41,332 nt of DNA from Chloroflexaceae bacterium (lineage in GTDB: Bacteria > Chloroflexota > Chloroflexia > Chloroflexales > Chloroflexaceae), in contig JAAUTZ010000024.1 in assembly GCA_012031225.1 (NCBI GenBank), positions 1 to 41,332 of the forward strand. The letters run 5' to 3'. Of the stretch, positions 39,556-41,332 are shown piece by piece; within the stretch, counting starts at the first letter, position 1; each line of letters begins with the position of its first letter. Position numbers and translations under genes: made by a program. A model generated the notes under the pieces. It did no database searches. It was not told the origin of the DNA and worked only from the letters and a program-made list of their open reading frames with translations.

Positions 39556-41332
39556 GTGAGTGTAGAACCGGTTTCCCCCTTGATTAGCCGCAATGGAGCG
39601 AGCAACAGCCATAGCAATGGCTATCATGCTGAACTCGATCTGGCTGGGATCAAGATCCCCGAACTGATTGTCAAGCGTGATGGGCGCGTCGTGCCGTTTG
39701 ACATCAGCCGCATTGAAAATGCCTTGACGCGCTGCTTTGGCGGGCTAGGGCGCACCCCGCGTACCCCGATTGATGAACTCGCGCACCGCGTTGTGAATAT
39801 CATTGCGGCGCAAACCAACGGCGAGCATCCGACGGTCGAGGGTGTGCAGGATGTGGTTGAGATGGTATTGCAAGCGGCGGGCGAATTTGAAGCCGCCAAA
39901 AGCTACATCCTCTACCGCGCCGAACACGCCCGCAAGCGCGAAGTGCGCCCGGTGCCGGATGAGGTGCGCCGGGCCTTTGAGGAGTCGGATCAGTATTTCC
40001 CGACCCCGCTCCAGAAGTTTCAGTTCTTCGACAAGTATTCGCGCTTCAACTATGATCTAGGGCGGCGTGAAACGTGGCTCGAAACGGTCAATCGAGCGGT
40101 GGATTTCCTGTACGAACTGGCTGGATCGCGCCTGCCCGCGGCCACCTACGAACGCCTGCGCCAGAGCATCCTGAATCTCCACGCGATGCCCTCGATGCGC
40201 CTGCTGGCAATGGCGGGTCCGGCTGCGCGGCGCAACAACATCACGATCTATAATTGTCTCAGTGGTGATGAAAAGTTCCTCACCCGTGATCAGGGCGTGA
40301 TTGCCCTGCGCGATGCCGTAGGATCGGTTGTCGTGCTGAATCAAGAGCGCGAGTGGACGGATGCCGAGGTGCGTTGCTTTGGCCCGCAGGAGACGGTTGA
40401 GATCGAACTAGGTCGCTTTAAGACGCGCAAACGCTTGCGCGTGACGATGAACCACAACTGGGTGCTGGCAGATGGCACTCGCGTAACCACGCAGGAATTG
40501 CAACCCGGCGACGAGCTTCCCTATATGCTGGCTCCGCGCACGGTTGATACTGACTCGATTGATTATCGGCTCGGGCTGATGCACGGCATCATTTATGGCG
40601 ATGGTACCCGAATTTTCACGCAGGAGCGGAGTCTTGGGTACGTCATTCGGTTGTGTGGTGACAGCCGTGAGTTGCTCTCGTACTTTGCTGGCTACAATGT
40701 GAGCTATCCGCCAACCTACGGAGGCGATCCCGTAGTCTATATGTTCGATGCCTTTGCCAAGACGCACGCGCTTAAGGAGTTGCCGACCGAGACAGAAACA
40801 CCGGATTATCTGGTCGGCTTCATCCGTGGGTGGTTTGCTGCTGATGGCTATGTCTCGAAGATCGGGCAGATGTTCTTTGCGACAGACGATCAGGGCGAGG
40901 CGTGGTTGCGCCGTGTTGGTCCAACGGTGGGCTTTGACTTTGGTTACCATGTTATGCTCCCAGAAACAACCAACTTTGGGGTGCGGCAGAAGCAAACACG
41001 TAATCTGGAGATTCGCCGTCAGTCTATCAGTGCGGATGATTTGCTGCTCACCAAACACCTGCGGAACTACCGGCAGGCGGCCACGGATCGCAACTGGAAG
41101 TTTTTGGGGATCATTGCAGGGACGGAACGAACGGAAGAAGTCTACTGTGCTACGGTCCCTGAAACACATACCTTTACCCTTGCTGATGGCGTATTAACGG
41201 GCAACTGTAGCTACCAGCCCGTCGAGAGTATTGACTCATTCGTGGAAGCCCTGATTATCTCGATGAGTGGCTGCGGGGTGGGCTTCTCGGTCGAGGGCAA
41301 GTATGTGGAGAACTTCCCGCGTATCAAACGCC
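39556..41332 (+). CDS. nrdJ: Adenosylcobalamin-dependent (class II) ribonucleotide reductase, intein-containing, 3' end outside window
   Basis: The frame is open from GTG 39556 (AAGGAG, 6 bases upstream) to the window end. Extein residues about 30-130 are an ATP-cone domain (LIVKRDGRVVPFDISRIENAL). The N-terminal reductase part follows, with NLHAMPSMRLLAMAGP and RRNNITIYN. After the intein the extein resumes with CSYQPVESIDSF and MSGCGVGFSVEGKYVE, the pattern of the class II RTPR-like branch. The enzyme reduces ribonucleotides to deoxyribonucleotides with a cobalamin radical. The intein interrupts the codons for N233 and C, where the +1 Cys corresponds to a redox-active cysteine of the family by analogy. 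Enzyme activity thus needs splicing. The catalytic barrel and C-terminal cysteines are beyond the window. Confidence 0.88.
   Translation, partial: MSVEPVSPLISRNGASNSHSNGYHAELDLAGIKIPELIVKRDGRVVPFDISRIENALTRCFGGLGRTPRTPIDELAHRVVNIIAAQTNGEHPTVEGVQDVVEMVLQAAGEFEAAKSYILYRAEHARKREVRPVPDEVRRAFEESDQYFPTPLQKFQFFDKYSRFNYDLGRRETWLETVNRAVDFLYELAGSRLPAATYERLRQSILNLHAMPSMRLLAMAGPAARRNNITIYNCLSGDEKFLTRDQGVIALRDAVGSVVVLNQEREWTDAEVRCFGPQETVEIELGRFKTRKRLRVTMNHNWVLADGTRVTTQELQPGDELPYMLAPRTVDTDSIDYRLGLMHGIIYGDGTRIFTQERSLGYVIRLCGDSRELLSYFAGYNVSYPPTYGGDPVVYMFDAFAKTHALKELPTETETPDYLVGFIRGWFAADGYVSKIGQMFFATDDQGEAWLRRVGPTVGFDFGYHVMLPETTNFGVRQKQTRNLEIRRQSISADDLLLTKHLRNYRQAATDRNWKFLGIIAGTERTEEVYCATVPETHTFTLADGVLTGNCSYQPVESIDSFVEALIISMSGCGVGFSVEGKYVENFPRIKR
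40255..41205 (+). mobile_element. Intein with LAGLIDADG homing endonuclease inside nrdJ
   Basis: A 317-residue in-frame insertion. Block A starts at Cys1 (CLSGDEKFLTRDQG). Block B is VTMNHNWVLADG with its conserved His. The two endonuclease motifs are RLGLMHGIIYGDG and VGFIRGWFAADGYVS, both with the acidic residue of LAGLIDADG enzymes. Block F/G ends in VPETHTFTLADGVLTGN, followed by Cys +1 of the extein. The terminal Asn is present, but the residue before it is Gly rather than the usual His. The endonuclease motifs look intact, so the element may still be able to home. The element lacks separate start and stop codons and is translated with the host enzyme. Confidence 0.92.

Follow-up and report, generated by a model that had tools for sequence, protein, structure and literature searches.

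The window analysed here, 41,332 nucleotides from a Chloroflexaceae bacterium, runs to the end of a contig (G000:C33), where its last gene, nrdJ, carries on into another contig of the same genome (G000:C13). The start of nrdJ was taken as GTG because AAGGAG lies just upstream. The gene is interrupted by an intein, here intein 1, and its features are as follows (counts refer to a clade of 96 inteins introduced below; a caret in a motif marks the insertion point):

39556..40254, + strand: N-extein of nrdJ, an RTPR-like class II ribonucleotide reductase with an N-terminal ATP cone (ATP-cone 76 bits)
40255..41205, + strand: intein 1, 317 aa, HINT splicing domain and LAGLIDADG endonuclease, at an Asn / redox-active Cys junction
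40255..40257, + strand: intein Cys1 codon (Cys in 94 of 96 clade members, Pro in 2 of 96)
40444..40461, + strand: block B, T64-M-N-H67-N-W69; Trp B:12 is one of the WCT triplet
40570..40605, + strand: LAGLIDADG motif 1, LGLMHGIIYGDG, acidic residue intact
40810..40848, + strand: LAGLIDADG motif 2, LVGFIRGWFAADG, Asp197 intact in the window and Gly in the congener G001
41146..41148, + strand: Cys298 (block F:4), the same in all 96 members; probably the first nucleophile, in a class 3-like route
41188..41205, + strand: block G, G-V-L-T315-G316-N317, with Thr G:5 (WCT), penultimate Gly and terminal Asn
41203..41205, + strand: terminal Asn317 codon
41206..41208, + strand: +1 Cys codon
41206..41332, + strand: start of the C-extein (CSYQPV...), equal to the 127-bp overlap with contig G000:C13

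Intein 1 is genuine and its coordinates hold to the base; chance is excluded. It is complete, with all four splicing blocks found between YN and CSYQP: A (CLSGDEKFLT), B (T64-x-x-H67-x-W69), F (EEVYC298..THTF) and G (DGVLTGN^C), the last supplying the terminal Asn next to the +1 Cys. Reading frame, boundaries and blocks agree with the first-pass annotation, which had placed an intein at 40255-41205 between Asn and Cys of YN-CSYQP. It had also correctly described both endonuclease motifs as intact, the acidic residues D116 and D197 being present, and the penultimate residue as Gly rather than His, read here as G316 in block G. Among the domain models, NCBIfam intein_Cterm (TIGR01443) passes its cut-off of 15.6 with 30.9 bits, while the Pfam intein model PF14890 reaches 20.9, under its own cut-off of 35.8, and PF14528 on the endonuclease 20.1 against a cut-off of 22.5. 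Empty homologous sites, IYNCSYQP or near variants, occur in approximately 30 relatives, and homologous inteins occupy the same site in the congener G001 (95% identity over the query) and in another family member. The predicted structure is confident along its full length (mean pLDDT 94.7, pTM 0.91). Its best structural match is PI-PfuI (1dq3; VIA Z 21.8, rmsd 3.5, 296 residues aligned), a ribonucleotide reductase intein; other matches are NpuDnaE (Z 19.0) and the class 3 DnaB intein 6bs8 (Z 17.7), and the endonuclease part matches I-DmoI and PI-SceI. The model thus has the predicted fold of a full intein with endonuclease, including the HINT domain. Intein 1 resembles PI-PfuI (Pfu RIR1-1) and other TNP^C reductase inteins in being a LAGLIDADG-bearing reductase intein, but it belongs to another lineage and sits at another cysteine; the inteins of that site type are represented in this genome by its second intein.

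The host enzyme is called RTPR-like only, because for an intein-free relative the score against TIGR02505 (monomeric class II reductases) is 262 bits, the best of all families but below the NCBIfam equivalog cut-off of 340. The nearest solved structure of this relative is L. leichmannii RTPR (1l1l, E 4e-39). Equivalents of Cys119, Cys408 and Cys419 are all present in the host, in NC-SYQP, TNPCGEI and FCNL respectively; in RTPR, Cys119 and Cys419 are redox partners. A direct phmmer alignment of the relative with 1l1l misplaced the N-terminal cysteine and was set aside for a two-step alignment through the class II enzyme of phage P318: hhalign of a profile of four intein-free relatives against the spliced phage enzyme (99.75% probability) puts Cys242 of the relative, the +1 Cys, onto P318 Cys88, which aligns with Cys119 of 1l1l. 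This supports the assignment of the +1 Cys as the redox-active cysteine equivalent to RTPR Cys119, as the first-pass annotation had predicted. The alignment thus puts the position within the active site, and it is conserved, the +1 Cys being invariant in all relatives read.

A second intein of 363 codons, ending in VHN, lies on G000:C13 (locus L003) at TNP^CGEI. Of class 1 type and carrying Asp at F:4, it interrupts the thiyl-radical cysteine (Cys408 equivalent). Intein 1 and the second intein together interrupt two predicted catalytic cysteines of one enzyme; the active site could form only once both had been removed, and the enzyme would presumably be inactive until then. The MAG, 97% complete, yielded neither an R2 subunit nor a class III reductase, and a large-subunit search of the genome with PF02867 gave no second reductase, this search being so insensitive that it missed even nrdJ itself. 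The RTPR-like class II enzyme therefore appears to be the only ribonucleotide reductase of the cell, and the lack of an R2 match is consistent with the adenosylcobalamin dependence predicted for class II. Since no R2 or class III reductase was found, it is reasonable to suppose that dNTP supply would depend on intein splicing.

The first-pass annotation had proposed a search for inteins at the same insertion site. With the intein sequence alone as the query and the extein excluded, we obtained 96 unique full inteins, the host class being judged from flanking motifs. This redox-active reductase cysteine is the site of 87 of the 96: 77 are in class II enzymes of phages, Chloroflexota and archaea, and 10 in class III enzymes. 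The remainder are found in DnaG-like CHC2 zinc fingers (3), the HNPS^C reductase site (3), a RecD-like helicase (1) and probable terminases (2). In the zinc-finger members (L069, L168, L169), from Skermanella, Sphingomonadaceae and Nonomuraea, the insertion falls at a zinc-binding Cys (CFGC) of a DnaG/CHC2-like primase domain. Homologues in named phages comprise the class II enzyme of Thermobifida P318 and the class III NrdD of Morganella MP1, Klebsiella FBKp34, Vibrio V6Aob and two faecal phages. When viral and genome contigs were scanned as well, further members came to light in phage contigs and in Chloroflexota, Nitrososphaerota, Micrarchaeota and other groups. Matches in phage G20c and in Nodularia phages were rejected, as they lie at the thiyl site, the former outside the clade. 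MP1 NrdD aligns with T4 NrdD without gaps through the site, and its +1 Cys corresponds to T4 Cys79, the cysteine of the reductive half-reaction (PMC4493059). These phage reductase inteins (P318, MP1, FBKp34, V6Aob) share with intein 1 the clade, the structural cysteine, the TG(N/Q)^C end and the WCT residues; they differ in being only 27–32% identical to it and, for MP1, FBKp34 and V6Aob NrdD, in residing in glycyl-radical enzymes.

A maximum-likelihood tree sets the clade apart from the thiyl-site inteins with SH-aLRT 99. The same tree places the window's intein with that of G023 and then with the phage contigs L077 and L075, support in this part of the tree being SH-aLRT only, from a quick search. 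These two contigs carry the nearest relatives outside the host family, L077 at 42% identity. The quick tree draws two transfers between enzyme classes, which we do not claim: a single clade of class III inteins is not rejected by the AU test (p 0.82), and one transfer between class II and class III enzymes could therefore suffice.

The motifs of the clade bear on the route of splicing. Trp B:12, Cys F:4 and His B:10 are each conserved in all 96 members and Thr G:5 in 94; the three WCT residues (W69, C298 and T315 in the window) occur together in 94 of the 96. The WCT triplet at B:12, F:4 and G:5 defines class 3 inteins (PMC3196547, PMC7891396), whose splicing pathway has been described (PMC3196547, PMC7891396, PMC4031507) and in which Cys+1 is reported to be rare (PMC5222942). 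Intein 1 has the triplet but also a nucleophile at position 1, and because class 3 demands the absence of Cys1 we do not file it there; its motif set is a mixture of class 1 and class 3. The clade resembles the class 3 inteins of Bethlehem DnaB, Msm DnaBi1, Dra Snf2 and Catera Gp206 in the WCT triplet, the HINT fold, the common presence of LAGLIDADG and the association with phages (PMC3196547, PMC6195587, PMC7891396), but differs from them in keeping Cys1, the block B TxxH and Cys+1. The AceL NrdHF class 3 intein also combines class 3 chemistry in a reductase gene with absence of the penultimate His (PMC7891396), but it is split, starts with Ala1, carries an MCT triplet and occupies another gene and site.

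We hold with moderate confidence that intein 1 is a mobile, phage-related member of the WCT clade that keeps Cys1, sits at the RTPR Cys119 equivalent and splices most likely from Cys298, because the WCT residues are kept and class 1 initiation is closed to the two members with Pro1. Cys298, at block F:4, would attack the N-terminal junction first; the N-extein would then be handed to the +1 Cys, itself the future catalytic cysteine; and Asn317 would then cyclise, a step in which block F His305 may stand in for the missing penultimate His. Ordinary class 1 splicing from Cys1, with Trp B:12, Cys F:4 and Thr G:5 ancestral or merely assisting, is a possible but rather doubtful alternative. Cys1 is kept in 94 of the 96 members and the TxxH threonine in 95, as expected if Cys1 still acts, which speaks against Cys298 going first; Cys is also the second commonest residue at F:4 among inteins generally (PMC4031507). 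The class 1 route sits poorly with the retention of all three WCT residues in 94 members, across inteins 27–32% identical to the window's, and with the two same-site inteins in viral contigs that have Pro1 in open frames (L075, 3462-4403; L114, 3498-4394) and are unable to start class 1 splicing. One of these two sits near the window's intein in the tree. Mixed inteins with both Cys1 and WCT reportedly splice by the class 3 route. For splicing from Cys298 in a mobile intein, the site, motifs, clade, second intein and divergence are read from sequence, and we infer the pathway order, the inactivity before splicing and homing.

Inteins in reductases and in active sites are ordinary, and a reductase active-site intein is already on record in Aquifex aeolicus R2 (PMC8772380); the Aquifex case is alike in placement, but it concerns the metal site of R2, another intein and another subunit. 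What appears new is the fidelity of the clade to one cysteine across class II and class III enzymes, together with its mixed class 1/class 3 signature; we found no description of such a clade within the part of the literature open to search. That one intein lineage should track the same structural cysteine between enzyme classes sharing little sequence is less expected. A published catalogue of 1701 class 3 inteins demanded the absence of Cys1 (PMC7891396), and the present clade would therefore be missing from it. If the class 3 reading of the clade is true, reductases commonly use class 3 chemistry, and this has been overlooked as catalogues exclude Cys-starting inteins. The clade offers a natural series, with Cys1 or Pro1 beside WCT, endonucleases intact, mutated or absent, and sites occupied or empty, which could serve to test the origin of class 3 splicing and why an intein stays restricted to a single residue.

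Comparison with the congener G001 bears on mobility. Synonymous divergence (dS) between the two genomes is 0.18 and 0.15 for the inteins and 0.33, 0.50 and 0.40 for the three extein parts, and the lower intein values (Fisher p 4e-6 and 2e-8), which codon usage or unequal constraint at synonymous sites might explain in part, suggest intein exchange after the species split. The endonuclease is intact in the window's genome, carries D197G in motif 2 in G001 (C121, L033:3015-3965), which probably kills cleavage, and is lost as a domain in G023; these intact, mutated and lost states, with empty sites in most relatives, read as stages of a homing cycle. The intact LAGLIDADG domain of the window copy would probably cut intein-free nrdJ alleles, leading to the copying of the intein into them. 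The overlap between contigs C33 and C13 is exactly 127 bases long and opens at the first base after intein 1. This is suggestive, though not proof, of a mixed population with an intein-free allele in the same sample, because a k=127 graph would join intein-free AAT^TGT to intein-bearing AAC^TGT at this point; the reading supposes a k=127 assembly. The far end of C13, with a 95% repeat overlap and no exact 127-mer, neither backs nor denies it. It is unlikely that the intein has become fixed and immobile, passed on by vertical descent alone, with the contig break an accident of assembly: the damaged motif 2 in G001 and the lack of any intein-free allele contig in the bin would fit, but the synonymous divergence of both inteins is approximately half that of the exteins, and the overlap begins precisely where an intein-free allele would join.

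The first-pass annotation had also suggested that Gly in place of His may slow splicing and make it conditional. This finds no support, because Gly is the norm of the clade (91 of 96 members) and because splicing goes to completion in a phage intein whose native residue is Gly, a change to His making it far slower (PMC5050341). The endonuclease-free G023 intein has Gly too, and the residue appears to be a clade trait. Slow, conditional splicing by which the intein regulates dNTP supply is thus very improbable: the G:6 His does normally assist Asn cyclisation (PMC4031507, PMC5222942), and redox control is conceivable for a Cys-initiated intein in a redox enzyme, given that the mycobacterial DnaB class 3 intein is inhibited by oxidation (PMC6195587), but beside the clade-wide Gly and the phage result, block F His305 is present and most relatives have the same enzyme with no intein at the site.

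Reductase genes of other genomes and phages carry inteins at further positions. In loci L035-L051 (G011, G015, G017, G018, G021, G050, G051), at least three more sites are occupied in the same gene, GGVRR^T, KPSGN^S and HNPS^C, the HNPS^C inteins being of WCT type with a penultimate His. At the thiyl cysteine, L034, L037, L039 and L049 (G023, G018, G012, G025) have a different type of intein, with Trp-Gln or Arg-Gln as its last residues; an HNH-like insert is present in three of these four. Still more inteins, in the viral contigs L122 and L112, lie close to the Cys419 equivalent (F^CNL), the third cysteine of the active site, so that in some phage reductases the interrupted catalytic cysteines may number more than two.
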